Below, one piece after another: positions 8,575 through 64,000 of a stretch of 64,000 nucleotides of DNA. A program made the position numbers and the translations under genes. Each line of letters opens with the position of its first letter. Positions within the stretch are counted from its first letter, which is position 1. Source of the stretch: Deltaproteobacteria bacterium (lineage in GTDB: Bacteria; Myxococcota_A; UBA796; GCA-2862545); NCBI GenBank assembly GCA_006226595.1, contig SBGP01000042.1:1-64000 (forward strand), written 5' to 3'. Under the pieces are notes generated by a model that was not told the origin of the DNA, made no database searches, and was given only the letters and a program-made list of their open reading frames with translations.

Positions 8575-8589
8575 CGTGTCAGGCGGCGA

Positions 8590-8796
8590 TCAGTCGCGCT
8601 TGACGTAGGGGAGCAGGGCGATGTGGCGGGCGCGCTTGATGGCGCGGCTCACCTGGCGCTGCTGCTTGGCGGTGAGGCCAGTGGCCCGGCGGGGCAGGAT
8701 CTTGCCGCGCTCGGTGAGGAAGCGCTGGAGCTTCCGCACGTCCTTGTAATCGACGATCTCGTTCTGACCGAGCGGAGAAGGCTTACGACGTCCCAT
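8590..8796 (-). CDS. rpsR: 30S ribosomal protein S18, zinc-ligand-free form
   Basis: A protein of 68 residues. The ATG at 8796 follows an AGGGAG ribosome site. The core [19 protein letters not shown] and the C-terminal [13 protein letters not shown] are diagnostic of S18. S18 proteins of the zinc-ribbon class carry CPFC near the N-terminus and C..H after RRxTG; here those positions read SPLG and T..Q, so all four ligands are gone (a C-minus form). The gene stands alone rather than between rpsF and rplI, the usual arrangement. In other bacteria C-minus paralogues are often induced by zinc starvation through Zur; no Zur box was identified here. Confidence 0.93.
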
Positions 8797-8956
8797 GAAC
8801 TTGTCTCCCTTTCGCTGTGGGCTGGTCCGTCCCACCATGGGACGTGACCGGAGCCGAGTGACGGCTCCTCGCGCTCCTGCAGGGGTGCGGAGCGAGCGGA
8901 CCCGCGCTGGTAACGCAGCGTCTCTTCGCTGTCACGAAGACTTGCCGGCAACCTGC

Positions 8957-8962
8957 TAGGTT
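8957..8962 (+). promoter_or_regulatory. -10-like hexamer TAGGTT
   Basis: TAGGTT lies 18 bases before the proposed CTG start of the Dabb-domain gene and ahead of its GGAGG ribosome site. No clear -35 element. Confidence 0.35.
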
Positions 8963-8980
8963 CTCGGGCCTGGAGGCCTT

Positions 8981-9268
8981 CTGGTACACCATCTCGTGCT
9001 CTTCGACCTGCGTGATCCACAGACGATCGAGGCGACCGCGGAACGACTGCGCGCCATGGACGGCAAGATCCCGACCCTGAAGGGGATCGAGGTCGGCATC
9101 GACGAGCGTCCCTCACCGCGCAGCGCGCACATCGCCCTGCTCACGCACTTCGACGACTGGGCCGGGCTCGACGCCTACGCCGTGCATCCCGTGCACCAGG
9201 AGGTGCTCGCGTACATGGGGACGGTCGTCGAGCGCGCGAAGAAGGTGGACTGGGAGGACTCTGCGTGA
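8981..9268 (+). CDS. Dabb-domain (stress-responsive alpha-beta barrel) protein
   Basis: A protein of 95 residues. Family members typically start M-I-x-H-I-V-L-F. Here that block reads L-V-H-H-L-V-L-F from a CTG codon at 8981, which sits 4 bases after a GGAGG at 8972-8976. The first conventional start (GTG 8996) would remove the first strand and lies 19 bases from that ribosome site. I therefore favour a CTG start. The rest (TLKGIEVGID...AHIALLTHFDDWAGLDAYAVHPVHQEV) fits the dimeric Dabb fold. Function in the family is varied and often unknown. The stop overlaps the start of the permease gene (GTGA). Confidence 0.8.
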   Translation: MVHHLVLFDLRDPQTIEATAERLRAMDGKIPTLKGIEVGIDERPSPRSAHIALLTHFDDWAGLDAYAVHPVHQEVLAYMGTVVERAKKVDWEDSA

Positions 9269-10533
9269 GCGAGCTGTCGCGCCAGGTCGGCATCGCCGGC
9301 GCCGTGCTCATGGGCCTGGGGTCGATCGTCGGCACCGGCGTGTTCGTGTCGCTGGGCCTCGGCGCCGAGCTCGCGGGCTCGGCCCTGCCTCTGGCCCTGC
9401 TCGGCGCGGCCTTCCTCGCGCTATGCAATGGCCTGTCCTCGGCACAGCTCGCGGCCGCGTATCCGGTGAGCGGCGGCACCTATGAGTATGCACACCGCAC
9501 CGTGTCGCCGGCGGCCGGGTTCACCGCGGGGTGGATGTACCTCACGGCGAAGAGCGCGTCGGCGGCGACCGCGGCCCTCGGACTCGCGGGCTACCTGCTC
9601 GACCTGCTCGGCGTGGACGGCATCTCCGCGACGCCCGTCGCGTTCGGGGCGGTGATCGCGGTCACCGCACTGGTGTGGTGGGGCATCCGCCGCACGAACC
9701 AGGTGAACGCGGTGGTCGTGAGCATCACCCTGCTCGGACTCGCGAGCCTGGCGCTGTTCGGCGTGCCGCATGCCCTCGGTGCCGGTCGGGCCCAGCTGCT
9801 CGGCGACGTGCCGACTGCGAGCGAGCTGCCCGACGTACTCCACGCCGTGGCCCTCATGTTCGTGGCCTACACCGGCTACGGGCGCATCGCGACCCTCGGG
9901 GAGGAGGTGGTGGACCCCAAGCGCACCATTCCGCGGTCGATCCTCGCGGCCCTCGCCGTGGTGCTCGTGCTGTACGCAGCAGTCGCGGTCTCGGCGCTCG
10001 GCGCCCTCGGCGCGGAAGGCTTCGCGCGTGCGACCCGTGCGGGCTCGCCGCTTCAGGACGTGGCGCGCAGCCTCGGGCAGCCTGGCGTTGCGTCGTTCGT
10101 GGGACTCGCCGCGGTGACCGCCATGCTCGGCGTGCTCCTCAACCTCGTGCTCGGCCTGTCCCGTGTGTTGCTCGCCATGGGCCGCCGCAGCGAGATGCCC
10201 GCCGTGTTCGCCAGGATCGAGGGCGGCACTCCCGGTCCCGCGGTGATCGCGATGGGCGGGTTCATCGCGCTGCTCGTGCTCCTCGGCGACGTGCGCACGA
10301 CCTGGTCGTTCTCGGCGCTGACCGTGCTCGTGTACTACGCGCTGTGCAACCTCTCGGCGCTGCGCCTCGACCCGGCCCACCGCCTGTATCCGCGGGTGTT
10401 CAGCTGGCTCGGCCTCGCGGGCTGTGCCTCGCTCACCGTGTGGATCGAGCCCGTGTACTGGGTCGCCGGCGGTGGCTTGCTCGCGCTCGGCTTCGCGTTC
10501 CGGGCCGTGTCCCTACGCACCCAGCTCGGGTAG
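9265..10533 (+). CDS. APC-superfamily amino acid permease
   Basis: A protein of 422 residues with a GTG start inside the stop region of the upstream gene. The N-terminus GIAGAVLMGLGSIVGTGVFVSLG is the first helix of APC transporters, with the GxGxxxGTG substrate-binding break. About a dozen hydrophobic segments follow, including EEVVDPKRTIPRSI (the conserved loop after helix 6) and LSRVLLAMGRRSEMP. It probably imports an amino acid or related amine across the inner membrane, by proton symport or exchange. Its 3' end overlaps the convergent DUF952 gene by 21 bases. The substrate cannot be deduced. Confidence 0.88.
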   Translation: MSELSRQVGIAGAVLMGLGSIVGTGVFVSLGLGAELAGSALPLALLGAAFLALCNGLSSAQLAAAYPVSGGTYEYAHRTVSPAAGFTAGWMYLTAKSASAATAALGLAGYLLDLLGVDGISATPVAFGAVIAVTALVWWGIRRTNQVNAVVVSITLLGLASLALFGVPHALGAGRAQLLGDVPTASELPDVLHAVALMFVAYTGYGRIATLGEEVVDPKRTIPRSILAALAVVLVLYAAVAVSALGALGAEGFARATRAGSPLQDVARSLGQPGVASFVGLAAVTAMLGVLLNLVLGLSRVLLAMGRRSEMPAVFARIEGGTPGPAVIAMGGFIALLVLLGDVRTTWSFSALTVLVYYALCNLSALRLDPAHRLYPRVFSWLGLAGCASLTVWIEPVYWVAGGGLLALGFAFRAVSLRTQLG

Positions 10534-10854
10534 CGACCACGGCGTGCCCTCGGCGCGGGTGACCTCGCGCTCCCAGCTCACGTGTGCCGCGTGGAGGGGC
10601 GCGTAGAAGTGCGGAAACAGGGCACCTCCGCGAGAGGGCTCCCACTTCAGCGCGTCGCCGAGGGCTTCGCCGTCGACGGCGAGCAGCCACATGCGGTCCA
10701 CGTGCGCGAAGTGGCGCCGGGCGGTCTCTTCGAGCTGCTCGGCGGTGGAGAAGTGCACGAAGCCGTCGGCCAGGTCCACCGGGGCTCCGAGCGTGTGGCC
10801 GTCGGCATGCAGGGCGTCGCGCTCGGCGGGAAGCAGGATCTTGTACACGGTCAT
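10513..10854 (-). CDS. DUF952 family protein
   Basis: A protein of 113 residues. The pattern VYKILLPAE, DLADGFVHFSTAEQLEETARRHF, LKWEPSRGGALFPHFY matches the DUF952 family, small soluble proteins of unknown function in many bacteria; the length is normal. It converges on and overlaps the permease gene by 21 bases, so the two transcripts must be antisense to each other at their ends. Confidence 0.85.
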   Translation of the reverse strand: MTVYKILLPAERDALHADGHTLGAPVDLADGFVHFSTAEQLEETARRHFAHVDRMWLLAVDGEALGDALKWEPSRGGALFPHFYAPLHAAHVSWEREVTRAEGTPWSLPELGA

Positions 10855-10898
10855 GGGTGCGCTCGCGTCAGGCGGACCGTGTATGCGACACGCAAGAA

Positions 10899-49550: not shown

Positions 49551-50140
49551 GCTTCGTCCTGTATCGCGACGTGGGCTGCCCCTTTGCCCACCGCGTGGCC
49601 GCGCTGTTCGCGCACCTCGGCGTCACGTACGAGGAGCGCAGCGCGCTGGTCGGCGACAAGCCGGCGGGGCTGGAGGCGGTGTCGCCGGCGGGACGCATTC
49701 CTGCGCTGTCCCACGGTGAGCTCGCCCTGTACGACTCGCTGGTGATGGGCGAGTACGTCGCCGCGCTCCACGGGTTCGCGCTGTGGGCGGACGACCCGGG
49801 CGAGCGCGCGGTGGAGCAGCTCCTGTCGCGTCGCTACGACGAGTCCCTGGTCGGCGGCACGATGGCCGCGTTCTGCGGGCAGGCCCCGGATAGCTCGGTC
49901 TCCGACATGCTCGACGAGCTGGAGTGGCTCGCGGTGAAGACCACGCGGCACATGGGCTGGCTGGCGATTCAGCTCGGCAGCTTCCAGATGCTGCTGCGGG
50001 AGCATCGACCGGAGGTCGCGGAGGCGTTGCTCGCACGACCCGCCCTGGCGGCGTGGGCGGCCTTCGGCGAGTCCCAGGACTGTGTGCGGGAGGCGTGGCA
50101 GGAGGTCGCGTTCGCGCCCAAGTTCGGCGTGATCGGCTAG
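49547..50140 (+). CDS. Glutathione S-transferase (omega-like)
   Basis: A protein of 197 residues with a GTG start overlapping the MBL gene. The N-terminal thioredoxin fold has CPFAHRVAALFAHLGVTYE (catalytic Cys of the omega/stringent-starvation type), the cis-Pro in GRIPALSHGE and LYDSLVMGEYV for glutathione binding. The all-helical C-terminal domain follows. It probably reduces or conjugates electrophiles. Third gene of the TetR-linked cluster. It converges with, and overlaps by 4 bases, the DUF4132 gene. Confidence 0.87.
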   Translation: MSFVLYRDVGCPFAHRVAALFAHLGVTYEERSALVGDKPAGLEAVSPAGRIPALSHGELALYDSLVMGEYVAALHGFALWADDPGERAVEQLLSRRYDESLVGGTMAAFCGQAPDSSVSDMLDELEWLAVKTTRHMGWLAIQLGSFQMLLREHRPEVAEALLARPALAAWAAFGESQDCVREAWQEVAFAPKFGVIG

Positions 50141-52788
50141 ACGACGCCCAGATCGCGGAGCACCTCGGCGGTGACGACGGGGTGCTCGGACCAGTCCCGG
50201 CTGGCGCGCAGCTCGCACACCGGAAGGCGAGCCTCGGCGTCGATGTGCTCGAGGTTCACCCAGCCGTCGAGCTCGAGGCGGATGCGGACCCCGCGGAGCT
50301 CGCGGGTGAGCGTCGAGAACACGGGCAGTCGACGGTCCTCGTCGGTGTGCATCTCGCGTTGCCAGCCCTTGCGGGTCAGCCCAAGCACGCGACCCGTCGA
50401 CAGGCTGTGGTCGTCGGGCAGGGCAAGCTGACGAGACGGCGCCGTGGGGAGCGTGGGGAAGCGTCGGCCCAGCTGGTCGAAGGGCTGCAGGATCTGATAA
50501 TCACCAAGTATCTCGGACCACGCTTCGCGTGAGAGTGCCGGAAGGTCCAGTGGATGGGGGAGGTCGACTTTCGGGCCCGGGGTGAACGGTTCCTCGTCGG
50601 CATCGACCAGCTCACCGGACTCGTCGACGCGGAAGGTCTGGTCGCCCGAGCGCCACACCAGGCGTCGCGCGAGGTGGGCGACGAGGCGATGGCCGACCAC
50701 GTGGTCGAGGAAGTCGCGGGTGTCCCAGGATTGGCCCTCGACCATGGCGGTCTCGAAGCGCGTCAGCTGTGCCTTGGCCAGCGTCTTCACGTCCGCCTTG
50801 AGCGCGGTCCACGTCTGCTTCGCCTGCCTGGCGAGCGCGGCGTCGTCGCTCTTTCGAGCGCTGGGAAACCTCGGCACCGGCTGGCCTTCGGCATCGAGGA
50901 GTACGGGCTGCAGGCGCTCGTCGAAGGTGACGCGGAACCGGCGCGGGCCGAAGTCGAGGTCGAGACCGCCGCGATCGTCCAGGCCGAGGTCAGGGACCAG
51001 GCGTTCTTCGAGCTCGGCGAGCGGCATGTTCGCCTGTTTGGCCAGCGCCTCGATGTGAAGCGCCGCGCGCTCGGACACGGCGCGGGTCTGACGCTGCTGG
51101 CGCAGGGCGAACAGCTGCATCATCGCCTCGGACAGGCGGATGTGGGCCAGCGCATCGACCGCGAGGGCCGCCTCGCGGGCGTGACCCGCACGCGGCCACT
51201 GCAGCAGGCGTCTGGCGAGTCGCCGCGGTGTGCTCGGGTCGGCGAGGTGGACCTGGGCACCCAGCACCCAGCGTCCTTCGCGTGGAAGTCCCGCCTCCTG
51301 CCACGCGGCGAGCAAGGCCTCGGCGAGGTCGGCGAGTCCCGTGGTCTGGGCGCGCCAGGTGCGGACGCCGGGGGGAGGGGTCTGAAGGTCACAGTGAACG
51401 AGCTGGCGGACCATGGCGCCGACCGCCTGCGGGGGCAGCGCTTCTCCCGAGGTGAGCATCGAACGGGGCAGGCGGGGGACGCGGAGCCACGGCGGTGGCA
51501 CCACGCCCTCGGGAACCGCCAGGAAGTCCGGGTGCAGGTCCTCGGTGGCCGCCTGGGCCTGGCGGTCGACCTCGCCGAGCTGGGGGTGGCGGTCCAGGAG
51601 CTCGGCGAGCACCGCCTGAGCGCGGTCGGAGCGCGCTCGCCGAAGCGCGGGCACCGCGTAGACCGGCATGGCGTGCAGGCCGGCGGCGGCGGCGTCGGGC
51701 ATGAGGTCGAGGCTTGCAACCAGGGACTCGGCGGCCTCGGGGCTACGGATGCGGGCGATGGTCTCGACGACTTCGGGGATCTCGCGGCGAGCGCGCACGG
51801 CCTCGAGCGGCGCCAGAGCGGCGGGTCCCATGCGGGCGAGCAGGGTGTCGAAGTAGGTGGGCAGCAGGTCCCAGGGCGGAAGGCGTCCACCCACCGCGGC
51901 GATGAGCGCCGCGGCGGCTCCTGGATCGGTGGTGCAGCCGAGGAGCACGAGGTGGTGGCGCTCGGGCCCGGCGGCGAGCGCCTCCGCGAGGTCCGGGTCG
52001 CAGAGTTCGGACTCGGCGGGAAACACGGTGCTGATCGCGCAGCGAAGGCCGAGGGGCGCCCCCTGGCGGAGCTGCCGCGCGGCGTCGAGGGCCTCGGCAT
52101 AGGCCTCCTCGGACGCGGCGAGCAGGTGCTTGCGGAGGGCGCGCCACGGGCTGGTGAGCGTCGGCACGATGACCGGTTCGACCGTCGTGACGTACGGGCG
52201 GCTACCGCCGCCGACCTGGAGTCGTTCGCTGTGGACGAGCGCGCGCAGGGCTAGCGCCTCGCCGCCGAGGGCAAGCCAGAGATCGAGCCAGGCCTTGTCG
52301 GGAGCGAGTGCCGCGAGGCTGCCGAGGGCGATGGGATCGGTGGGAGGTGTCTCCAGCTCGGCGACGGCATCGCGGAGCTGGGCGATGGCGCGGTCGTTGC
52401 CGGTTGCTTGGTCCAGGCGGTGGCGTTGACGATGGACGGCCTTCACGAGCTTGCGCCAGGGGCCCTCCGCATCGCGCGGCGGGGTTCGGCGGGGCCGGCG
52501 GGCGAAAGGCAGCACCCGCCGCTGAGACTGCGGGTCCCAGTGCACGTGCGGCGTCATGTCGAGCGAGGCCGTCTCGGAGGCGAGGTCGACCTCGACCCAG
52601 CCGTCTCGCTGCTTGGCCGCGACGCGGCGGGCGGCCTCCTCGCGGGCATCGCGTGGGGTCTTCATGAGCTTGCGGCTCTGCTGGGGCCGGCCATCGCCCT
52701 TTCCCCAGCGAAGCTGCAGGAAGCGGCCGTCCGCTTCGACTTCCCAGTAGCGGCGGTCCCTGCCCGTGCCTGTCTCGAAGCGTCGCAT
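50137..52788 (-). CDS. WGR and DUF4132 domain protein
   Basis: A protein of 883 residues. Residues 1-75 are a WGR domain (RYWEVEADGRFLQLRWGKGDGRPQQSRKL), a nucleic-acid-binding module also found in PARPs. The middle 500 residues are helical with HEAT-like pairs. The C-terminal 260 residues match DUF4132 (DFGPRRFRVTFDERLQPVLLDAEGQ...MVEGQSWDTRDFLDHVVGHRLVAHLARRLVW...HPLDL). Related proteins include MolR of E. coli; function is unclear, with links to DNA damage or phage response suggested in places. There is no ribosome site and a TAGTCT hexamer lies 6 bases upstream, so the mRNA may be leaderless. Confidence 0.87.
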   Translation of the reverse strand: MRRFETGTGRDRRYWEVEADGRFLQLRWGKGDGRPQQSRKLMKTPRDAREEAARRVAAKQRDGWVEVDLASETASLDMTPHVHWDPQSQRRVLPFARRPRRTPPRDAEGPWRKLVKAVHRQRHRLDQATGNDRAIAQLRDAVAELETPPTDPIALGSLAALAPDKAWLDLWLALGGEALALRALVHSERLQVGGGSRPYVTTVEPVIVPTLTSPWRALRKHLLAASEEAYAEALDAARQLRQGAPLGLRCAISTVFPAESELCDPDLAEALAAGPERHHLVLLGCTTDPGAAAALIAAVGGRLPPWDLLPTYFDTLLARMGPAALAPLEAVRARREIPEVVETIARIRSPEAAESLVASLDLMPDAAAAGLHAMPVYAVPALRRARSDRAQAVLAELLDRHPQLGEVDRQAQAATEDLHPDFLAVPEGVVPPPWLRVPRLPRSMLTSGEALPPQAVGAMVRQLVHCDLQTPPPGVRTWRAQTTGLADLAEALLAAWQEAGLPREGRWVLGAQVHLADPSTPRRLARRLLQWPRAGHAREAALAVDALAHIRLSEAMMQLFALRQQRQTRAVSERAALHIEALAKQANMPLAELEERLVPDLGLDDRGGLDLDFGPRRFRVTFDERLQPVLLDAEGQPVPRFPSARKSDDAALARQAKQTWTALKADVKTLAKAQLTRFETAMVEGQSWDTRDFLDHVVGHRLVAHLARRLVWRSGDQTFRVDESGELVDADEEPFTPGPKVDLPHPLDLPALSREAWSEILGDYQILQPFDQLGRRFPTLPTAPSRQLALPDDHSLSTGRVLGLTRKGWQREMHTDEDRRLPVFSTLTRELRGVRIRLELDGWVNLEHIDAEARLPVCELRASRDWSEHPVVTAEVLRDLGVV

Positions 52789-54427: not shown

Positions 54428-54967
54428 ATGCTGCTCTTCGTCGCCCTCGCGTTCGCGCACCCCCCGGTCGCGGTGGAGAAGGTGGGCTCGTGCCCCAGCG
54501 GCTACTCGACCTCTGGAGATGCCTGCGTTCCCGGCTCTTCCGCGCGCTACGCGGTGGCCAAGGTCGGCTCCTGCCCGAGCGGCTACAGCACCAGCGGTGC
54601 CTACTGCCTCGCGGGGGCCGACGACACGCCCCATGCCATGGCGAAGACCGGCAGCTGCCCGAGCGGCTACAGCACGAGTGGCGCGTATTGCCTCGCCTCC
54701 CGGGCCGCCTCGGGAGGTCGGGTGCCGCCGACGGCGCTCGAGAAGGTGGGCTCGTGTCCCAGCGGGTACAGCACGAGCGGCGCGTACTGCAACCCCGGCT
54801 CGTCGGCGCGCTATGCCGTGGTCAAGGTGGGCTCGTGCCCGAGCGGGTACAGCACGAGCGGCGCCTACTGCCTGGCGTCGAGTGATGCGTCCGGACATGC
54901 GATGCCTCGGAGCGGCAGCTGTCCCAGCGGGTACAGCACGAGCGGCGCCTACTGCCTCTCTCGCTGA
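54428..54967 (+). CDS. Secreted six-repeat CPSGYSTSG protein
   Basis: A protein of 179 residues. A short signal peptide (MLLFVALAFAHPP) is followed by six repeats of 27-33 residues, each with the invariant core GSCPSGYSTSG followed by AYC or DAC, so every unit contributes exactly two Cys (12 in all). Linkers show a three-unit super-repeat: units 1 and 4 end PGSSARYAV, units 2 and 5 end in HAM. The spacing suggests one disulfide per unit. Isolated copies of this motif occur in secreted proteins elsewhere; a protein made of nothing else is unusual. Function unknown; a surface or matrix role is a guess. Confidence 0.85.
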   Translation: MLLFVALAFAHPPVAVEKVGSCPSGYSTSGDACVPGSSARYAVAKVGSCPSGYSTSGAYCLAGADDTPHAMAKTGSCPSGYSTSGAYCLASRAASGGRVPPTALEKVGSCPSGYSTSGAYCNPGSSARYAVVKVGSCPSGYSTSGAYCLASSDASGHAMPRSGSCPSGYSTSGAYCLSR

Positions 54968-55024: not shown

Positions 55025-55789
55025 CTAGGTGAAGCGCAGGTCGAGCTCGCCGATGCCGCTGATGGCCACGTGCATATGGTCGCCAGCGACCACCGGCTCC
55101 AGCGGGACGAGTGAGCCGGAGAGCACGACGTCCCCCGCCTTCAGCGCGATACCCCGGGCTCCGAAGGTGTTCGCGAGCCAGGCGACGCAGATCAGCGGTG
55201 AGCCGAGTGCCGCCCGTCCGTAGCCTTCCGAGAGGCGCGCTCCGTTCTTGTGAACGACCATGTGGCAGCCCTCGAAGTCGACCTCCGCGGGATCGACGCC
55301 CTCGCCGATGGCGAACAAGCCGCTGCTCGCGTTGTCGGCCACGGTGTCCTCGATGCCGATCTTCCAGTCCGCGATGCGAGAGTCCACCACCTCGAAGCAC
55401 GCGTGTACGGACTTCGTGGCCGCCAGCACGTCTTCGGGGGTGATGCCGGGGCCCACCAGGTCCCGCGCCAGCGTGAACGCGATCTCGCCTTCCGCGCGGG
55501 GCTGGATGAGGAGCTTGCTCACCGGCATCTCGCCGTGGAACACCATGGCGTCGGTGAGGGTGCCGAAGTCGGGCTGATGCACCCCGAGCATGTCCTGGAC
55601 GGCTCGGCTGGTGACGCCGATCTTGCGACCGATGATGCGCTCGCCATCGGCCAACCGTCGCTGGAGCATGGCATCGCTGATCGCGTAGGCCATGTCGATG
55701 TCGAGACCGTCGACGCGGCCCTTGAGGGGGGCCACGACCCGCCGCTCGCGAAGGGCCCGGAACAGCTCCTCTCCGTAGCGCTCAACCAT
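55025..55789 (-). CDS. 2-keto-4-pentenoate hydratase
   Basis: A protein of 254 residues of the MhpD/XylJ/HsaE type. It adds water to 2-hydroxypenta-2,4-dienoate or a longer dienoate, giving 4-hydroxy-2-ketoacids for aldol cleavage in the lower meta-cleavage pathway. GRKIGVTS, VHACFEVVDSRI (with the Glu that binds metal), and GSLVPLEPVVAGD are diagnostic. It overlaps the hydrolase gene by 8 bases, so the two enzymes act in consecutive or nearby steps. The aldolase and dehydrogenase that would finish the pathway are not in the window. Confidence 0.92.
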   Translation of the reverse strand: MVERYGEELFRALRERRVVAPLKGRVDGLDIDMAYAISDAMLQRRLADGERIIGRKIGVTSRAVQDMLGVHQPDFGTLTDAMVFHGEMPVSKLLIQPRAEGEIAFTLARDLVGPGITPEDVLAATKSVHACFEVVDSRIADWKIGIEDTVADNASSGLFAIGEGVDPAEVDFEGCHMVVHKNGARLSEGYGRAALGSPLICVAWLANTFGARGIALKAGDVVLSGSLVPLEPVVAGDHMHVAISGIGELDLRFT

Positions 55790-56603
55790 GGTTCAGGAAG
55801 TCCGCGACGAGACGGTCGAAGACGGCTGCGCGCTCGACCATCACCCAGTGCCCGCACTTGTTGAACAGGGTGACGCGGCAGTCGGGGATGCGCGTGGCGA
55901 GCTTCTCGGCGCCGCTCGGCGGGCAGAACACGTCGTCCATGCCCCACAGCCCCAGGGTCGGACAGCCGATCTCGTGGAGACGGTCTTCCTGGTTGTCGAC
56001 CTGCATGGTGCGGAAGACGTGGATCGGCTGGGTGAGCGCGATCTCCGTGCGGCGCTCGATCACGCCCTCGGGGACTTCGCTGCTGTCGTAGACCTGCTTG
56101 GTGAACACCTTTCGCATGCCCTCGACGGTGATGCCCTCGGGACCGTAGATGCAGCGCACCATCGAGCGGATGCCCTTGCACTCCATGTAGGTCTCGCGGG
56201 TCTCGAGGCCGCCAGGCGCCATGAGCACCAGCTTGGAGACGCGCTCGGGGTGATCGAGGGCGATGCGAATGGCCTGCGCACCTCCCTGGGAGTTGCCGAC
56301 CACGGCGTAGGTCTCGTGTCCCAGGCTGGCCATCACATCGGCGGCACAGGAGGCCATGAAACCCAGGCCGTACGGCACGTCCGTCGGCTTGTCCGACAGT
56401 CCGTAGCCGATGGAGTCGACGAGGATGCTCTCGTAGCCGTGCGCCGCCAGCGCCTCGGCGTTGGCCCGAAAGTTCGACCACCCGCTCGCACCGGGCCCGC
56501 TTCCGTGGAGCCAGAGAACGGGCTGGCCCTCGCCGATCGAGTGGAAGTGCATGCGGTGGCCGTCGCGCGTATGGGCGTACTGGCCCTCGGGGAGTGCAGT
56601 CAT
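55782..56603 (-). CDS. Alpha/beta hydrolase of the meta-cleavage-product type
   Basis: A protein of 273 residues from ATG 56603, with GGAGG upstream. The oxyanion region HGSGPGASGW (33-42), the nucleophile elbow GNSQGG with Ser105, and later Asp (GMDDVFCP) and His (CGHWVMVE) are those of BphD/MhpC/HsaD carbon-carbon hydrolases, which cleave vinylogous diketones after extradiol ring opening. Coupled to the hydratase gene. A 14-base palindrome (56624-56637) lies 20 bases upstream, the same as two sites at the TetR gene, so this operon is probably repressed by that regulator. The extradiol dioxygenase is not in the window. Confidence 0.9.
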   Translation of the reverse strand: MTALPEGQYAHTRDGHRMHFHSIGEGQPVLWLHGSGPGASGWSNFRANAEALAAHGYESILVDSIGYGLSDKPTDVPYGLGFMASCAADVMASLGHETYAVVGNSQGGAQAIRIALDHPERVSKLVLMAPGGLETRETYMECKGIRSMVRCIYGPEGITVEGMRKVFTKQVYDSSEVPEGVIERRTEIALTQPIHVFRTMQVDNQEDRLHEIGCPTLGLWGMDDVFCPPSGAEKLATRIPDCRVTLFNKCGHWVMVERAAVFDRLVADFLNHG

Positions 56604-56623
56604 CAGACCTCCGGGGCGCGAAG

Positions 56624-56637
56624 TAGAACATGTTCTA
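56624..56637. promoter_or_regulatory. TetR operator TAGAACATGTTCTA
   Basis: A perfect 14-base palindrome that fits the mycobacterial KstR pattern TnnAACnnGTTnnA, 20 bases before the hydrolase start. Identical to the site at 58092. Confidence 0.8.
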
Positions 56638-56776
56638 GTTCGCGGTGCCACCGCAAGCGTGCGCGTGTGCGGTGGGCGCCCACCTGGGCGCTCATCGAGC
56701 CCACATGGGCGGTCGAGGGCGCTCGTCGGGCGGTTGCGAACGACCGGAAGTGGCTGTTTCTGCGGCGTGCCGCGTG

Positions 56777-56793
56777 TGGCACGCGGGTTGCTT
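56777..56793 (+). promoter_or_regulatory. Sigma54 promoter TGGCACGCGGGTTGCTT
   Basis: An exact match to the sigma54 consensus (-24 TGGCAC, five bases, -12 TTGCT). It would start transcription about 56803, leaving a 140-base leader for the gene at 56941. Just upstream and overlapping, GCGTGCC (56766-56772) and GGCACGC (56779-56785) form an inverted repeat. Confidence 0.65.
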
Positions 56794-56940
56794 ACGGCGT
56801 CGACGAACCGTCGTGGCGGCGCCTTGCCGTCTCGGGGCGAACGCCCCCATCCCCGTTTTCTCTCGTGCCCGAGCGCTGCCTGGCAGGCGCCTCGAGCCAG
56901 GTCACTCGCGCAGGCCGCGCGTCACCCATGGAGTCTCATC

Positions 56941-57954
56941 ATGTCCCTCTGGTCCCGCTTGTCCGTCGTCTTCGCTCTCGTCGCCCTGCCCCTCGTCGCC
57001 CCCGCTGGGGAGATCCAGGGCTACGTCGTCCTCGAAGGGGAGTCCTCCCACGAGGGAGTCGCCGTCACCCTCGACGGTGGTTTGACCACGTTCACGGACG
57101 AGTCCGGCTTCTTCCTGTTCGAGGACGTGCCGAACGGCGGGGCCTACCTGCTTCGCGCCAATGTCCGGAGCTTCGAGCCTCGCATCCTCGGACCCGTAAT
57201 CGTGGACGCCAACGGCGTCAGCAGCGACCTCTTCGAGATGCTTCCCAGGGTGACCGGCGCCGTCGAAGGGATCGTCAAGCTCGAGGGCCTCTCCGACCAC
57301 TCGGGCATGTCCGTCGCGCTTGTCGGCACTCCGTTCACCGCCGTCACGGACTCCCAGGGTTCCTTCTGGATCGACCACGTCCCATCCGGTCAGTACCGGC
57401 TGGCGATCACGCCTCCGAGTGGCTTCTTGCCGACCTCGGTGTCCGACGTCTCGGTGATCGGTGCCGAAGTCCAGACCGTGCCGGTCGTGGACATCTCGAA
57501 GGAGCCTGTCGATCTGTCGTCCGAGGTCGCCGGCCTGCAGAGCGAGGTGATCCGGCTCGACGGATTCACCAGGCTCAACGACGCACGTCTGGACAAGGTC
57601 GAGCCCGTGGTGGATGCGCATCAGGAGCGCCTCTCCGACGTGGTCGTGGAGCTCGGCGGACACGCCGGACGACTCGACGCGCTCGAGGCCACGACCGCCC
57701 AGCTCGGCGGCGACCTGCGCGCGACCCGGAAGCAGCTCCTCGGCACCACGTCGACGGCCACCGCCAACGCCGCGGACATCGCCTCGCTCGAGCGTCAGGT
57801 CACTGCGCTCACCGTGCGAATGGACGCCGCCGAGGCCGATCGCGAGGCCCTGCACGCCGAGGTCTCGGCGCTCGACGACACCCTGCAGGCCCTGATCGAG
57901 GTGCTCGCGGCCAGCGGGCCGTTCCAGCGCGCGCTCGAGGACGCGGGTCTCTAG
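56941..57954 (+). CDS. Secreted protein with carboxypeptidase-regulatory-like repeats and coiled coil
   Basis: A protein of 337 residues from ATG 56941 with GGAG upstream. A signal peptide (MSLWSRLSVVFALVALPLVAPAG) is followed by two CarboxypepD_reg-like beta-sandwiches (EIQGYVVLEGESSHEGVAVTL...FFLFEDVPNGGAYLLRANV; VEGIVKLEGLSDHSGMSVALVG...SFWIDHVPSGQYRLAI). A long coiled coil (residues about 185-330: SSEVAGLQSEVIRLDGFTRLNDARLDKVEP ... ALHAEVSALDDTLQALIEVL) completes it. I infer an elongated oligomeric envelope protein. Its likely promoter is the sigma54 site at 56777. It sits between the two arms of the catabolic locus but has no catabolic features. Confidence 0.8.
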   Translation: MSLWSRLSVVFALVALPLVAPAGEIQGYVVLEGESSHEGVAVTLDGGLTTFTDESGFFLFEDVPNGGAYLLRANVRSFEPRILGPVIVDANGVSSDLFEMLPRVTGAVEGIVKLEGLSDHSGMSVALVGTPFTAVTDSQGSFWIDHVPSGQYRLAITPPSGFLPTSVSDVSVIGAEVQTVPVVDISKEPVDLSSEVAGLQSEVIRLDGFTRLNDARLDKVEPVVDAHQERLSDVVVELGGHAGRLDALEATTAQLGGDLRATRKQLLGTTSTATANAADIASLERQVTALTVRMDAAEADREALHAEVSALDDTLQALIEVLAASGPFQRALEDAGL

Positions 57955-58072
57955 TCTCGCCGACGGGCGACACCATGACCACGGGGACAGGTGGCGACCC
58001 GCTCTGGGCTTCGCCGCCGCCCTTGACGACCTGGCAGAGAACGTGTGAAGCTAGTGTTCAAGCGGGTTGGTG

Positions 58073-58078
58073 TAGGCT
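58073..58078 (+). promoter_or_regulatory. -10-like hexamer TAGGCT
   Basis: GTAGGCT lies 13 bases before operator 58092, so a bound regulator would block transcription just after initiation. Confidence 0.4.
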
Positions 58079-58091
58079 CGCGCGCCAAAAC

Positions 58092-58105
58092 TAGAACATG
58101 TTCTA
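58092..58105. promoter_or_regulatory. TetR operator TAGAACATGTTCTA
   Basis: A perfect copy of the palindrome at 56624, placed just downstream of the -10-like TAGGCT and upstream of the TetR coding region. Confidence 0.8.
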
Positions 58106-58125
58106 TTTCTGGTTGGCGCGAAGAA

Positions 58126-58139
58126 TGAAACATGTTCTA
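58126..58139. promoter_or_regulatory. Degenerate TetR operator TGAAACATGTTCTA
   Basis: Matches the palindrome at 12 of 14 positions; 34 bases (about three helical turns) from operator 58092. Confidence 0.6.
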
Positions 58140-58148
58140 CTACGCCGC

Positions 58149-58727
58149 ATGGAAGAACTCGACGAACGTAGTGACCGCATCATCCGTGTCGCCATGGAGC
58201 TCGCAGAGCGCGATGGCTTCGAGGCGGTGCGACTCCGCGACCTGGCCGCCAAGGCGGACGTGGCCCTCGGTACGGTGTACCGGCGCTTCTCGTGTAAGGA
58301 GGACATCCTCGCCGCGGCGCTGGCCCAGCAGGTGCAGCTCCTCAAGCAGGGGATCGAGAGCCATCCCTTCGAGGGCGGCTCCCGCGAAGAGCGGCTCACG
58401 GTGTTCTTCACCAATGTCACCCGCATCCTCGCCGACCAGCCCAAGCTGACGGCGGCCATGTTGCGGACCGTGGCCAGCGGTGTGCCCGACCTCGCCGAGA
58501 GGGTGCTTCGCTATCAGGACACGATGGTCGAGATCATCGTCATCGTCATGCGCGGAGATGCCGCCAAGGGCCCCGCCGCCGACGATGAGGTGTTCCTCGC
58601 GAAGATGCTTCAGAACATCTGGTTCGCAGCACTGGTGGGCTGGACCGGCGGACTCTTCGATGCCGAAGAGGTCATTCGCCAGGTCGTGTCCGGCATGAAG
58701 GTGCTCATCAAAGGCATGGAGGACTGA
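58149..58727 (+). CDS. TetR regulator of the catabolic locus (KstR-like operators)
   Basis: A protein of 192 residues from ATG 58149; ATGs at 58125 and 58098 lie within or next to the operators and are less likely starts. The helix-turn-helix is IIRVAMELAERDGFEAVRLRDLAAKADVALGTVYRRFSCKEDILAAAL. The C-terminal domain (LTAAMLRTVASGVPDLAERVL...LAKMLQNIWFAALVGWTGGLFDAEEVIRQVVSGM) resembles acyl-CoA- or hydrocarbon-responsive TetR proteins such as KstR. It shares a base with the Rieske gene start (TGATG) and heads the rightward operon. Confidence 0.88.
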   Translation: MEELDERSDRIIRVAMELAERDGFEAVRLRDLAAKADVALGTVYRRFSCKEDILAAALAQQVQLLKQGIESHPFEGGSREERLTVFFTNVTRILADQPKLTAAMLRTVASGVPDLAERVLRYQDTMVEIIVIVMRGDAAKGPAADDEVFLAKMLQNIWFAALVGWTGGLFDAEEVIRQVVSGMKVLIKGMED

Positions 58728-59692
58728 TGGGGCGCTTCCCGTTCCCGATTCCCACTGGCTGGTTCGCCGTCGCATTCTCGTCCGAGCTCGAGCCCGGCGA
58801 CGTGAAGCCCGTCAAGTACTTCGGCAAGGACCTGGTGCTGTTCCGCACCAGCGATGGCGAGGCGCACCTGCTCGATGCGTTCTGCCCGCACCTCGGCGCG
58901 CACCTGGGCCACGGCGGCTTCCTTCGCGAGGACCGCCTCGTGTGTCCGTTCCATGCCTGGGAGTTCGACGGCAAGGGCAAGTGCAAGCACGTGCCCTACG
59001 CGAACAAGATGCCGAAGAAGGCGGACGTTCCCGGCTGGCTGATCCACGAGAAGAACGGGATGATCCTCGCGTGGCACGACCTCGCCGGTCGCGAACCCTT
59101 CTTCGAGGTGCCCGATGTGCCGGAGTTCGCCGACGAGGGCTGGACCGACATCCGCACCAAGCAGTGGACCATCAAGTCCTGCAACCAGGAGATGGCCGAG
59201 AACCAGGTCGACACCGCGCACTTCCAGTACCTGCACGGCTCCACCAAGATGCCGGAGGCTACGGTCGAGCGCCGCGGACCGCACCTGATCACCAAGTCGG
59301 GTACTGGCATGTCGACGCCCGCGGGTCCGGTCGACGGCACCCTCGAGGTCAACGCGTGGGGCTTCGGCTTCACGACCACCCGGTTCAACGGCATCGTCGA
59401 GACCCTGCTCATGAGCAGTGCGTCGCCCATCGACGAGGACCACGTCGAGCTTCGCTTCGCGTTCATGGTCCGCAAGATCGGCAAGGGCATCACTGGCGGC
59501 GTCGGCAAGGCGTTCATGGCCGAGGTCAGCCGCCAGCTCGAGCAGGACATCCCGGTGTGGGAGAACAAGATCTACATCGACCCGCCCGTGCTGTGCGATG
59601 GCGACGGTCCCATCGGCCAGTTCAGGCTGTGGGCGCGGCAGTTCTACCCGGAGGGCTGGCGCGAAGGCTCTGACGTCGCGGCTGCGAAGTAG
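58727..59692 (+). CDS. Rieske non-haem iron oxygenase, KshA/cholesterol-desaturase-like
   Basis: A protein of 321 residues. The Rieske cluster is bound by CPH (53-55) and CPFH (73-76). The catalytic iron site N-x2-D-x2-H-x4-H is at 159-170 (NQVDTAHFQYLH), and the third ligand Asp lies in EQDIPVWENK. The segments CKHVPYANKMPKKADVPGWL and WHDLAGREPFFEVPDVPE are shared with 3-ketosteroid 9alpha-hydroxylase (KshA) and the DAF-36/Neverland cholesterol 7-desaturases. I infer a steroid or sterol-like substrate. A reductase partner (KshB type) is not in the window. It follows the TetR gene directly. Confidence 0.88.
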   Translation: MGRFPFPIPTGWFAVAFSSELEPGDVKPVKYFGKDLVLFRTSDGEAHLLDAFCPHLGAHLGHGGFLREDRLVCPFHAWEFDGKGKCKHVPYANKMPKKADVPGWLIHEKNGMILAWHDLAGREPFFEVPDVPEFADEGWTDIRTKQWTIKSCNQEMAENQVDTAHFQYLHGSTKMPEATVERRGPHLITKSGTGMSTPAGPVDGTLEVNAWGFGFTTTRFNGIVETLLMSSASPIDEDHVELRFAFMVRKIGKGITGGVGKAFMAEVSRQLEQDIPVWENKIYIDPPVLCDGDGPIGQFRLWARQFYPEGWREGSDVAAAK

Positions 59693-59695
59693 CCC

Positions 59696-61198
59696 ATGGC
59701 CTACCTTCGACCCACCGAGGGCAGCGGCGGACGCCGCGCGTACAAGGTGCTCGCTCCCGCCGACGGCGCCGAGATCGGGCAGTACGACGTGGCCAACGCC
59801 GAGGACGTCGCACGGGCCATCGCGCGTGCCCGCGAGGTGCAGCCCGGGTGGGCGAACACGCCCGTGAAGCAGCGCGCCAAGCTGATGCGCAAGGCGCTCA
59901 AGGTGCTCGTGTCGCGCCGCGAGGAGTTCGTCGAGCGGCTGACCCGCGAGACGGGTCGGCCCGAGCTCGACACGCTGATGATCGAGATGTTCGCGGGCGC
60001 GGACTGCATGAACTACTACGCCCGCCGCGCGCCCAAGCTGCTCGCCGAGCATCGCGTCGGCATGCACCTGCTGCGCATGAAGAAGGCAAAGATGGTGTAC
60101 CGCCCTCTCGGGGTGGTCGCGGTCATCTCGCCGTGGAACGGGCCGTTCATCCTCTCCGCGAACCCGACGGTCCAGGCCGTGCTCGCTGGCAATGCCGTCG
60201 TGCTCAAGCCCTCCGAGGTCACGCCGGAGGCTGGACGCATCGTCGTCGAGATCTTCGAGGCCGCGGGCTTTCCCAAGGACCTCGTCCAGGTGGTGCTCGG
60301 CGACGGCGAGACTGGCGCGGCTCTCATCGAGGGCGGCGTGGACAAGGTCACGTTCACCGGCTCGGTGCGCACCGGGCGCATCATCGGCGAGATCTGCGGG
60401 CGCAACCTCGTGCCCTGCACCCTCGAGCTCGGCGGCAAGGACCCGATGCTGGTCTTCGAGGATGCCGACATCGATCGTGCCGCGGCCGGCGCGGTGTTCG
60501 GCGGGGTGATGAACACCGGACAGTTCTGCTCGGGCATCGAGCGCATCTACGTGCACGAGTCCGTCATCGACGCGTTCACCGAGAAGGTGGTCGCCAAGGT
60601 GCGCCAGCTCGAGGCGGGCCGTGACTACGGTCCGTTCATCTTCGAGAAGCAGGCCGACATCGTCGAGGGACAGGTGAAGCAGGCCGTCGAGGCCGGTGCG
60701 ACCATCCACGTGGGCGGAGAGCGAGATGGCACGACCTTCCCGCCGACCGTGCTCACCGGCATCACCCAGTCGATGAAGCTGATGCAGGAGGAGACCTTCG
60801 GGCCGATCCTTCCGATCCAGCCGTTCGCCACGGAGGACCAGGCCGTCGCTCTCGCCAATGACTGCGAGTACGGGCTGTCCGCCAGCGTGTGGACACGGGA
60901 CAAGGCACGCGGCGAGCGCGTGGCCCGCCGACTGCAGTCCGGCTCCGCGACGATCAACGAGACCTCGATGATCTACGGCGCGCTGGAGCTTCCCTTCGGC
61001 GGCCTGAAGGCCAGCGGCCTCGGCCAGGTGAACAGCGCCGACGGACTGCTCAACTACGCCCAGGCCTTCCCCATCCTCTCGGACCGCTTCGGCAACAAGG
61101 ACGAGAGCGTGTGGTTCCCGTACACCGAGGACAAGGTGGACGGCATGCGCAAGGCGCTCAAGGCGATCTGGGGTACCCCGCTGCGATGGATCGTGTAG
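59696..61198 (+). CDS. NAD(P)-dependent aldehyde dehydrogenase
   Basis: A protein of 500 residues, starting 3 bases after the Rieske gene. It oxidises an aldehyde to the acid. Conserved residues are Asn148 (SPWNGP), Lys171 (KPSE), Glu244 (LELGGKDP) and the nucleophile Cys278 (GQFCSG). The C-terminal catalytic-fold elements (EETFGPILPIQPF, LPFGGLKASGLG) are intact. In a steroid or terpenoid pathway it could oxidise a side-chain aldehyde; the substrate is inferred only from context. Its last 13 bases overlap the next gene. Confidence 0.93.
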   Translation: MAYLRPTEGSGGRRAYKVLAPADGAEIGQYDVANAEDVARAIARAREVQPGWANTPVKQRAKLMRKALKVLVSRREEFVERLTRETGRPELDTLMIEMFAGADCMNYYARRAPKLLAEHRVGMHLLRMKKAKMVYRPLGVVAVISPWNGPFILSANPTVQAVLAGNAVVLKPSEVTPEAGRIVVEIFEAAGFPKDLVQVVLGDGETGAALIEGGVDKVTFTGSVRTGRIIGEICGRNLVPCTLELGGKDPMLVFEDADIDRAAAGAVFGGVMNTGQFCSGIERIYVHESVIDAFTEKVVAKVRQLEAGRDYGPFIFEKQADIVEGQVKQAVEAGATIHVGGERDGTTFPPTVLTGITQSMKLMQEETFGPILPIQPFATEDQAVALANDCEYGLSASVWTRDKARGERVARRLQSGSATINETSMIYGALELPFGGLKASGLGQVNSADGLLNYAQAFPILSDRFGNKDESVWFPYTEDKVDGMRKALKAIWGTPLRWIV

Positions 61199-62304
61199 CC
61201 GCCAGCACGCCGGGTCGAGCTGCCGCCGGCGCCATTGGCGTCCTGGGAGCGACAGGCTTCACGGGCCGCCGCGTCGTGGAGGCGCTCGAGCGACTGGCGC
61301 AGCCGTACGTCGTGATCGGGCGACGTCCCGATGCGCTCGCGCGGGTCGCGGGTGAGCACTGCGTCGACCAGCGCATTGCCGACGTAGGCGACCCGAGCCG
61401 CCTGGTCGCGGCCTTCGCCGGGCTCGGGGCGCTGGTGAACACCGTGGGGCCCTTCGCGCTGCACGGGGAGGCTGTCGTGCGCGCGGCGGTCGAAGCGGGC
61501 GTGCACATGACCGACGTCTCCGCCGAGCTCGCGTGGCTGGCCGAGGTCGGCGCGCTCGGCAAGGCGGCCGAGCTAGCCGGGGTGTGCGTGCTGCCGGGCA
61601 ACGGCTGCGACTTCGGCTTCGCACACCTCGCAGCGTCGCTCGCCGACGATGCCGTACAGGGAGCCGAGGCCATCCACGTGCACCAGTGGATGGTCGACTT
61701 CGTGCCCACCGGTGGCACCCTCGACAGCATCCTCCGGCAGGGGCGCCATCGACCGCTACACCTCGCGGATGGGCAGGTTCGGCGACGCCGCGGACTGGGC
61801 ATACATCGTAAGCTGATGCAGGACCTCGACGGCTATGGCGTGCCGTGGACCGGGGCCGAGCCGGTGACGCTGTCGTGGGACCTTCCGCACGTGCGCGAGG
61901 TGACCTGTGACCTCGTGCTTTCGCTGCCCGAAGCACTCGGCTTCGCAGTGGGCACACGGCTGCTGGCGCGAGCACCACAGCGCGTGCTCGACCTCGCAGG
62001 ACGTCTGGCGTCTCGCGCTCCGGAGCCCGCCGAAGACGTGCGGCGGCGCTCCCGCTTCATCGCCGTGGTCGAGGCGGTGAACGGCGAGCAGATTGCGAGG
62101 GTCCGCGTCGAAGCCCCTGATATCTACGGCATCACCGGCGACCTGGCCGCCGTGACGGCAGTGCTCCTCTCCCGAGGAGAGGCACGTGTCGCCGGTGTTC
62201 ACACGGTCGGCGCCGCCCTCGACCCGCTGGCGGTGCTGCGCCCCCTCGCATCTCGCGGCGTGGAGCTTCAGCTTCCGCCGGAGCCCCTCCGGAGGAGTGC
62301 CTGA
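61186..62304 (+). CDS. Saccharopine-dehydrogenase-like NAD(P)-binding protein with a compensated frameshift
   Basis: A protein of 372 residues as read. The N-terminal GVLGATGFTGRRVVEAL is the dinucleotide site of the saccharopine dehydrogenase-like/trans-acting enoyl reductase family, followed by LVNTVGPFALHGEAVVRAAVEAGVHMTDVSAE. Between about 61741 and 61812 the frame reads Arg/His-rich (GRHRPLHLADGQVRRRRGLG), while frame 2 reads GAIDRYTSRMGRFGDAADWA, which is protein-like. Before and after that block frame 1 is normal. Two compensating single-base changes would correct it. These proteins act as oxidoreductases on lipids or acyl chains; the role here is unknown. Overlaps its neighbours on both sides. 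Confidence 0.78.
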   Translation: MDRVAASTPGRAAAGAIGVLGATGFTGRRVVEALERLAQPYVVIGRRPDALARVAGEHCVDQRIADVGDPSRLVAAFAGLGALVNTVGPFALHGEAVVRAAVEAGVHMTDVSAELAWLAEVGALGKAAELAGVCVLPGNGCDFGFAHLAASLADDAVQGAEAIHVHQWMVDFVPTGGTLDSILRQGRHRPLHLADGQVRRRRGLGIHRKLMQDLDGYGVPWTGAEPVTLSWDLPHVREVTCDLVLSLPEALGFAVGTRLLARAPQRVLDLAGRLASRAPEPAEDVRRRSRFIAVVEAVNGEQIARVRVEAPDIYGITGDLAAVTAVLLSRGEARVAGVHTVGAALDPLAVLRPLASRGVELQLPPEPLRRSA

Positions 62305-63533
62305 TGGCGTTCCTGGACCGCTACCAGAGCCTCGTCACCCGCCACGAGGCCGCCCTGTCCCTCACCCGCATCGGCGACGAGGACCCCGGACGCTTCCCGG
62401 CGGACGAGGTGTGGGCCGACTTCGTGCGCCTGTACGAGACCGGTCTGCACCCGGCCATCGCCCTGTGCGTCATGCACCGCGGACGCCTGGTGATGAATCG
62501 GACCATCGGGCACCTGCTCAACCATCCCGAGGACGACGACGTCGGGGACATCGCGACCCCGGACACCCTGTTCTCGCTGTTCTCCGCCTCCAAGATCGTC
62601 ACCGCGATGGTGGTGCACGCGCTGATCGAGGACGGTGTGTTCTCGCTCGACGAGCGCATGGTGGACACGCTGCCGGAGCTCGCCTCCCGCGGAAAGGAAG
62701 CCATCCGCCTCCGGCACCTGCTCAACCACACGGCGGGCATCCCGGACATGCCGCGCGACCTCGATGTCGAGGAGGCGATCGCGGTCGGCAAGGTCGATTT
62801 CCGCTTGCTCGAGGAGCTGCGGCCGTCCCACGCGCCCGGCACCAACGTCGCCTACCACCCGATGACCAGCTGGATCTGCATCCAGGAGATGGTCGAACGC
62901 AAGACGGGACGCGACCTGCGTGCGCACCTGCGCGAGCGCTTCCTCGATCCCATGGGGATCGATCACCTGTCTTACGGTGTAAGCGAGCCGGACATGGACC
63001 TCGTCGCGAGGCATGCGGTGACGGGCCTCCCGGTGCCGACCTTCATGGGCAAGATCTTCGAGCGCACCATCGGCGCCGACCTCGACCGAGCCATCGAGCT
63101 GTCGAACACGGCCCCTTTCCTGACGGGTCTCCTGCCGAGCGCCAACGTCATCGGCTCGCCGCTCGAGATGACTCGGTTCATGCAGATGCTCCTCGACGGC
63201 GGGCGCGTGAACGGCATGCGTCTGCTGTCGGCGGAGAGCGTGCACCGCGCCACGACCGAGGTCACGCCCGCGCAGTTCGACAGCACCTTTGGCTTCCCGA
63301 TGCGCTACGGGCTCGGCACGATGATGGGCGGCAACCGCTTCTCGCTGTTCGGCCTGGGAACGCGAGGGGCGTATGGACACCTCGGCCTCTCTGCCGTCGT
63401 CGTGTACGCCGACCCACGGCGCAAGCTCGCCGTCTCCTTCCTCAACACCGGCAAGACCATGGCCGCGCCCGGCATGGTCCAGTGGGCGTGGTGCGTGCAG
63501 CGCATCATCAACGCCGCTTCCCGGGCGCGGTGA
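62304..63533 (+). CDS. Beta-lactamase-fold serine hydrolase (class C/EstB type)
   Basis: A protein of 409 residues; GGAGGAG precedes ATG 62304, which shares a base with the upstream stop. The nucleophile is in SASK (SxxK), the second motif Tyr in AYHPM (YxN altered), and the KTG position reads HLG (GHLGLSAVVVY), as in esterase/carboxylesterase members rather than true beta-lactamases. LRHLLNHTAGIPD is the usual family block. There is no signal peptide, so it is probably cytoplasmic. Such hydrolases recur in actinobacterial steroid regulons and act on esters or lactones. Contains a second copy of the CTTACGGTGTAAGC palindrome. Confidence 0.88.
   Translation: MAFLDRYQSLVTRHEAALSLTRIGDEDPGRFPADEVWADFVRLYETGLHPAIALCVMHRGRLVMNRTIGHLLNHPEDDDVGDIATPDTLFSLFSASKIVTAMVVHALIEDGVFSLDERMVDTLPELASRGKEAIRLRHLLNHTAGIPDMPRDLDVEEAIAVGKVDFRLLEELRPSHAPGTNVAYHPMTSWICIQEMVERKTGRDLRAHLRERFLDPMGIDHLSYGVSEPDMDLVARHAVTGLPVPTFMGKIFERTIGADLDRAIELSNTAPFLTGLLPSANVIGSPLEMTRFMQMLLDGGRVNGMRLLSAESVHRATTEVTPAQFDSTFGFPMRYGLGTMMGGNRFSLFGLGTRGAYGHLGLSAVVVYADPRRKLAVSFLNTGKTMAAPGMVQWAWCVQRIINAASRAR
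62971..62984. repeat. Second copy of palindrome CTTACGGTGTAAGC
   Basis: Identical over 14 bases to 54990-55003, but inside a coding region (encoding SYGVS). Its regulatory value is uncertain. Confidence 0.4.
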
Positions 63534-63540
63534 GGGTGGC

Positions 63541-64000
63541 ATGAAGCTCGCCGACGACCCCGAGGTGTTCCGCGACGAGCTCGCGGACTGGCTCGAGGCC
63601 AACGCGCCCAGGAGCCTCTGGAACACGGTGTCGACGCCGTTTCAGGGACACTGGGGTGGGCGCAACTGCGCATTCCCGAGCCCCGATCACAAGCTGTGGT
63701 TCGAGCGTTGCGTGGCGCTCGGCTGGACCGCGCCACACTGGCCCTCCGAGTACGGCGGCGCCGACATGCCGACCTCGCACTACCGCGTGTTTCGCGAGGC
63801 CCTCTCTTCGCGCGGACTTCCGATGCCGCTCGTGGGAACCGGGCTGACGATGATCGGACCCATCCTGCTTGCCGAGGGTAATGACGCCCAGAAGGCGGAG
63901 CATCTCCCGAAGATCGCCTCGGGTGAGATTCGCTGGTGCCAGGGATACAGCGAACCTGGCGCGGGCTCCGACCTGGCGAACTTGCAGTGTAAGGCCGTGC
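63541..64000 (+). CDS. Acyl-CoA dehydrogenase (3' end outside window)
   Basis: 153 residues are visible from ATG 63541 (GAGGGTGG upstream), and the frame is open to the window edge. MKLADDPEVFRDELADWLEA is the N-terminal helix, HWPSEYGGADM the typical early block, and QGYSEPGAGSDLA the FAD/substrate signature of acyl-CoA dehydrogenases. It oxidises an acyl-CoA to the 2,3-enoyl-CoA. In steroid regulons paired or single FadE/ChsE-type enzymes shorten side chains or ring-derived acids; the N-terminal part alone cannot tell which. Last visible gene of the rightward operon, 7 bases after the serine hydrolase. Confidence 0.93.
   Translation, partial: MKLADDPEVFRDELADWLEANAPRSLWNTVSTPFQGHWGGRNCAFPSPDHKLWFERCVALGWTAPHWPSEYGGADMPTSHYRVFREALSSRGLPMPLVGTGLTMIGPILLAEGNDAQKAEHLPKIASGEIRWCQGYSEPGAGSDLANLQCKAV

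Follow-up and report, generated by a model that had tools for sequence, protein, structure and literature searches.

A KstR-like regulator and a predicted steroid-degradation regulon in an uncultured bacterium of the phylum Myxococcota

Genes and operators at the locus

The stretch of DNA analysed here, referred to as the window, consists of positions 1–64000 of contig SBGP01000042.1 (contig C102 of genome G000 in our labelling), from an uncultured myxobacterium. The assembly comprises 7.23 Mb in 117 contigs and is 97% complete, with a contamination estimate of 2.7%. Two operons close to the end of the window are transcribed away from each other (Table 1). One consists of hsaD-like and hsaE-like genes, and the other begins with a gene for a KstR-like TetR repressor and continues beyond the window, where the first acyl-coenzyme A (CoA) dehydrogenase gene is followed on the same contig by a second, IpdE2-like, one. 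An earlier note, made from the sequence alone, had listed a hydrolase-hydratase pair and a TetR operon, described the Rieske oxygenase in the latter as KshA-like, and placed a 14-bp palindrome before the pair and at the TetR gene, with a degenerate third copy. Domain and family profile searches returned the same products, KshA was the best match of the Rieske protein in Pfam and PDB sequence searches, and all three sites lie where they had been placed.

Three copies of the degenerate operator pattern TNNAACNNGTTNNA are present in the window, compared with 0.04 expected and a maximum of 1 in 100 dinucleotide shuffles. Chance occurrence of the palindromes was ruled out by these shuffles together with the genome-wide excess over a reversed control described below.

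The best NCBIfam model for the hsaD-like product is HsaD, followed by BphD (173 bits), and its best PDB matches are BphD entries. Because a better KshA is found behind two operators on contig C104 (232 bits to PDB 4qdc), the Rieske enzyme of the window is probably a KshA paralogue. Three consecutive KshA_C-type Rieske genes are also present on contig C89 (positions 8338–10891), which carries no site matching the operator pattern.

The TetR regulator

The start of the TetR gene was set at 58149 instead of 58098, because homologues align from 58149 and the ATG at 58098 falls inside an operator; both operators at this gene therefore lie upstream of its start. The best NCBIfam model is KstR NF033703 (100 bits, next model 36), and when the whole genome was searched with this model the window protein was the sole strong match (99.5 bits, next 44.5). 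KstR of Mycobacterium tuberculosis (5cw8) is also the top match in a PDB sequence search, at 70.7 bits against 47 for the next entry that is not KstR. The AlphaFold model (predicted local distance difference test score 89) has KstR chains as its top 17 fold matches, including the DNA-bound 5ua2 and 5fmp, with template modelling scores of 0.79–0.90. The recognition region reads VALGTVYRRF here and VAVGTLYRYF in KstR. KstR is hence the predicted nearest relative among characterised TetR proteins, with profile, PDB sequence and predicted fold searches all giving the grouping that the earlier note had proposed to check.

A 14-bp palindrome, TAGAAC(N2)GTTCTA, is found upstream of the mycobacterial kstR gene (Kendall et al. 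2007, PMC1995591). The palindrome described here, which had been proposed as a KstR-type operator, is identical to it and is located in the promoter of the TetR gene itself and at steroid genes.

Operators across the genome

Over the whole genome, TNNAACNNGTTNNA was found 43 times, compared with 7 in the reversed control. The stricter form TAGAACRYGTTCTA, corresponding to TAGAAC(RY)GTTCTA, gave 24 matches, all of them exact even with one mismatch allowed, and 0 in the reversed control. The exact sites are distributed over 12 contigs, one of them 426 kb in length, and fall into 17 promoter regions, or 19 when regions that carry TGAAAC-type sites alone (C44:80997 and C50:5093) are included. All operators are located 23 to 116 bases upstream of start codons, which were chosen by homology. 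At several operators (L028, L030 and L026) the automatic calls are antisense open reading frames, and the opposite strand encodes IpdA/IpdB, IpdC and MaoC-type genes. Weak sites such as those at C16:22726, C27:19985, C41 and C55:812 are not at the promoter of a steroid gene and were taken as chance occurrences.

The regions are shown in Table 1. The palindrome precedes further ring-degradation genes, namely hsaA and an hsaC-type gene, kshA, kstD, hsaFG, fadD3, echA20-ipdA-ipdB and an ipdC-like gene, and two of the genes that the earlier note had suggested should be sought outside the window, hsaC and kstD, are represented by an HsaC-type gene and KstD1 on contig C1 and by KstD2 on C104.

Table 1. 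Features of the window and operator regions of the genome. Positions are those of the window; offsets are for the first base of the operator relative to the start codon.
Feature	Location	Strand	Evidence or associated genes
hsaE-like 2-hydroxyalkadienoate (2-oxopent-4-enoate type) hydratase	55025..55789	-	TIGR03220 351 bits (cut-off 409); FAA_hydrolase fold
hsaD-like meta-cleavage product hydrolase, alpha/beta hydrolase	55782..56603	-	ATG at 56603; NF045632 (HsaD) 180 bits (cut-off 400)
Operator TAGAACATGTTCTA	56624..56637		-34 from hsaD-like ATG
Operator TAGAACATGTTCTA	58092..58105		-57 from kstR-like ATG
Operator TGAAACATGTTCTA	58126..58139		-23 from kstR-like ATG
KstR-like TetR repressor, 192 aa	58149..58727	+	NF033703, PDB search, predicted fold
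KshA-family Rieske oxygenase	58727..59692	+	Pfam KshA_C 135 bits; PDB KshA 4qdc 170 bits
Aldehyde dehydrogenase	59696..61198	+	Pfam Aldedh 465 bits
Saccharopine-dehydrogenase-like NAD(P)-binding protein	61186..62304	+	Pfam Sacchrp_dh_NADP 43 bits
LipE-like beta-lactamase-fold hydrolase	62304..63533	+	NCBIfam LipE NF038269 294 bits (cut-off 750)
Acyl-CoA dehydrogenase, large-subunit type	63541..64000	+	Continues past window end
Operator region	C1		KstD1
Operator region	C1		Amidohydrolase-HsaA-HsaC-type
Operator region	C21		EchA19-FadD
Operator region	C26		Acyltransferase
Operator region	C36		SRPBCC protein
Operator region	C36		FadD3-short-chain dehydrogenase/reductase (SDR)
Operator region	C42		Enoyl-CoA hydratase-acyl-CoA dehydrogenase-thiolase
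Operator region	C44		Hsd4A-like SDR
Operator region	C44		FadA-FadB; divergent: CaiB-type CoA transferase
Operator region	C44		CYP125/142-type P450-SDR; divergent: another P450
Operator region	C50		IpdE2-like acyl-CoA dehydrogenase and others
Operator region	C50		MaoC-type pair-SDR
Operator region	C99		SCP2-ChsH2-type-Ltp
Operator region	C102 (window)		HsaD-HsaE
Operator region	C102 (window)		KstR operon
Operator region	C103		EchA20-IpdA-probable IpdB
Operator region	C104		KshA-KstD2
Operator region	C110		IpdC-like
Operator region	C110		HsaG-HsaF

Three further proteins encoded in the window were noted. The interval that separates the hsaD-like operator from the kstR operators encodes, at about 56942–57954, a protein whose start resembles a signal peptide and whose repeats look, by eye, carboxypeptidase-regulatory-like. 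A 179-aa protein (54428–54967) is built of GSCPSGYSTSGAYC-type repeats with cysteines at regular spacing, and an 883-aa protein (50137–52788) has a WGR-like stretch at its N-terminus, also recognised by eye.

Assignment of pathway genes

The pathway assignments vary in strength, and paired values below are the score and the NCBI cut-off. FadD3 (694/657), HsaG and HsaF (NCBI models for acetaldehyde dehydrogenase and 4-hydroxy-2-oxovalerate aldolase), and the models PRK07791 (an Hsd4A-like SDR), PRK07801 (thiolase), PRK07938 (EchA20-like), PRK07831 and PRK07856 are above their cut-offs. EchA19 scores above the cut-off with the EchA19-type model PRK07799 (390/316) and just under it with the EchA19 model (369/400). 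HsaA (440 bits, cut-off 450) and Ltp (403/419) also fall just short. KstD1 (572 bits), KstD2, HsaD, HsaE and IpdE2 are well under their cut-offs, as is the HsaC-type extradiol dioxygenase, at 201–270 bits.

In PDB sequence searches, the cytochrome P450 encoded on C44 has CYP125 and CYP142 as best matches (283 bits to CYP125MRCA and 239 bits to CYP142), and IpdA scores 285 bits to IpdAB structures, with the next family at 77. ChsH2 and SCP2 domains were detected at the Ltp/ChsH2-type pair on C99. On these predictions, the gene set for use of cholesterol-like steroids appears near-complete.

Distribution in the Myxococcota

A sample of 379 genomes from the phylum was surveyed. At least one exact site is present in 72 of these and at least three in 30, and KstR-like proteins were detected in 112. 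An HsaA-type match of at least 390 bits was found in 43 genomes (11%) and IpdA in 99 (26%), and the earlier note's description of such a locus as not typical of known Myxococcota needs revision on these counts. HsaA-type genes are present in 23 of the 30 genomes with at least three sites and in 20 of the remaining 349 (Fisher P 3e-19), and IpdA in 26/30 compared with 73/349 (Fisher P 5e-13), relatedness being ignored in both values. Within the family to which the genome belongs, IpdA was found in all 5 genomes with at least three sites and in 0 of the other 16.

The gene order of the TetR region (Rieske, aldehyde dehydrogenase, LipE-like protein and two acyl-CoA dehydrogenases) is retained in L066, L067, L068 and L070. 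Sites adjoin kstR in dozens of loci, and TGAAAC-type sites precede kstR homologues in many relatives. In cultured Nannocystis species (L105, L108, L112, L116, L118 and L121), a KstR-like TetR gene is accompanied by KstR-type sites and has a P450 gene upstream. In a metagenome-assembled genome recorded as 'Deltaproteobacteria', 336R_metabinner_62 (L093 and L095), one KstR-like gene lies next to a continuous KshA-HsaA-HsaC-HsaD-HsaE-HsaG-HsaF series, and a second has KstD-type genes as neighbours. The same sites also accompany KstR-like genes in L089 and L134, whose records carry the names Candidatus Dadabacteria and Candidatus Hydrogenedens.

The predicted regulon and alternative explanations

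The two operons of the window, one with the regulator gene and the other with the hsaD-like and hsaE-like genes, very probably belong to a regulon that spans the genome, is controlled by the KstR-like protein and serves aerobic 9,10-seco degradation of cholesterol-like steroids. The earlier reading of the window as a steroid degradation locus is supported and now extends well past it, to 19 operator regions and KshA, KstD, Hsa and Ipd genes. A dimer of the TetR protein would bind TAGAAC(RY)GTTCTA sites, single or paired, just upstream of start codons and repress about 19 operons as well as its own gene. By analogy with 3-oxo-cholestenoyl-CoA for KstR of M. tuberculosis, a steroid-CoA intermediate would release it. 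The side chain would then be oxidised by the CYP125/142-type P450, FadD, acyl-CoA dehydrogenase pairs, EchA19, thiolases and the Ltp/ChsH2-type pair; rings A and B would be opened and cleaved by KshA, KstD, HsaA, the HsaC-type enzyme, HsaD, HsaE, HsaF and HsaG; and rings C and D would be degraded by FadD3, EchA20, IpdA, probable IpdB, IpdC and IpdE2.

Several observations weigh against this reading. The TetR protein is only ~26% identical to KstR of M. tuberculosis and, at 100 bits, falls far short of the NCBI equivalog cut-off for KstR of 280; because of this score it is named KstR-like and is claimed to work like KstR. In a 97% complete genome of the same genus (G015), which has 15 exact operators, no KstR-like gene was found, even in a search with an alignment model. 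HsaC, HsaD and HsaE are under their cut-offs and equally near to biphenyl-pathway enzymes, and IpdB and IpdC are probable identifications from domain and gene neighbourhood. The HsaB family PF01613 has 0 matches in the genome, whereas it is represented in 13 of 14 control genomes. The kshB gene, also proposed earlier for a search, was not found with PF00970, the single match to which looks NqrF-like and not like a KshB reductase. It is possible that HsaA and KshA receive electrons via non-orthologous reductases or that the genes are in the missing 3% of the genome. The Fisher values for co-occurrence count related genomes as independent.

Some of these points would also fit a regulon directed at a different polycyclic or aromatic substrate (biphenyl-like, a diterpenoid, a hopanoid or sterols made by the cell itself) rather than environmental cholesterol-type steroids. 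For the HsaC-type and HsaD-like enzymes, the matches to BphC and BphD are about as good or better, HsaB and KshB were not found by searches for PF01613 and PF00970, and sterols are produced by other members of the phylum (PMC10202945, PMC12004948). However, the CYP125/142-type P450, KshA and KstD encoded in a single operon, an HsaA score of 440 bits against a cut-off of 450, FadD3 above its cut-off and IpdA jointly specify 3-ketosteroid and rings C/D chemistry, and this alternative is considered improbable. Somewhat less remote, though still unlikely, is that the TetR protein is a general acyl-CoA or fatty-acid regulator of the KstR-like superfamily with steroid genes as just part of its targets. 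In many relatives within the phylum the TetR gene and its operator have thiolase, SDR and acyl-CoA dehydrogenase genes of a generic kind as neighbours, and a KstR-like protein is still present in 47 of 307 genomes that lack an exact site, but in the genome studied here the genes behind most of the 19 operator regions have steroid roles, and across the phylum the number of sites follows the presence of HsaA-type genes and IpdA.

An assembly artefact, in which actinobacterial contigs were binned into a myxobacterial genome, might explain why both the operator and the genes are of actinobacterial type. This is largely refuted and has almost no probability left, as the exact sites are on 12 contigs including one of 426 kb, contamination is estimated at 2.7%, relatives at family, order and class level share the arrangement, and the TetR protein is so distant (~26% identity) from that of M. 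tuberculosis.

Comparison with known steroid regulons

The KstR2 regulon consists of the rings C/D genes fadD3, ipdABC, ipdF, fadE30-33 and echA20. Here, fadD3, echA20, ipdA and probable ipdB and ipdC are likewise present, with the order echA20-ipdA-ipdB, but they are preceded by the KstR-type operator. Actinobacterial rings C/D genes are members of the KstR2 regulon (PMC7807495, PMC4810484). A search for a separate KstR2 regulon was negative, the KstR2-type motif being found 2 times in the genome and 10 times in the reversed control. Because FadD3, EchA20-IpdA-IpdB and the IpdC-like gene carry KstR-type sites and the KstR2 motif is not enriched, one KstR-like repressor seems to cover what mycobacteria divide between KstR and KstR2.

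As in the Mycobacterium KstR regulon (PMC1995591), a TetR protein of the KstR fold is accompanied by an identical palindrome, both in the promoter of the repressor gene and before kshA, kstD, hsa and side-chain genes. In contrast, the system described here is in the phylum Myxococcota, its genes are spread over many contigs and not in one main cluster, operators are often paired, kstR shares its operon with genes for a Rieske enzyme, an aldehyde dehydrogenase, a LipE-like hydrolase and two acyl-CoA dehydrogenases, and hsaB and kshB were not found. The ring-cleavage chemistry predicted here is that of 9,10-seco degradation in Comamonas and other Proteobacteria, whereas the KstR-type operators and CYP125/142-type side-chain entry resemble the actinobacterial system.

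In earlier surveys, the complete 9,10-seco pathway was detected only in Actinobacteria and Proteobacteria (Bergstrand et al. 2016, PMC4810484; Holert et al. 2018, PMC5790920), and neither 'Myxococc' nor 'Deltaproteobacteria' appears in the text of these papers. Openly licensed literature on Myxococcota or myxobacteria and steroid degradation yielded sterol biosynthesis or unrelated work, and a report may exist elsewhere. The KstR system of actinobacteria is known; what the data support as new is its KstR-like counterpart for steroids in Myxococcota, in which a single operator serves the entire pathway.

A broader and more doubtful proposal, offered tentatively, is that the entire sterol pathway, side chain through rings C/D, is under one KstR-like repressor and one operator, that this unified regulon is nearer to the ancestral state before the actinobacterial KstR/KstR2 split, and that steroid degradation is common in sterol-making Myxococcota. 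The findings define a biochemical gap, namely the reductase on which HsaA and KshA depend in the absence of HsaB and KshB, and raise the question of whether myxobacteria that make sterols and those that degrade them consume each other, prey or sterols from the environment. If the regulon is confirmed, another phylum would join the known steroid degraders, and the origin of the KstR/KstR2 division would become testable.

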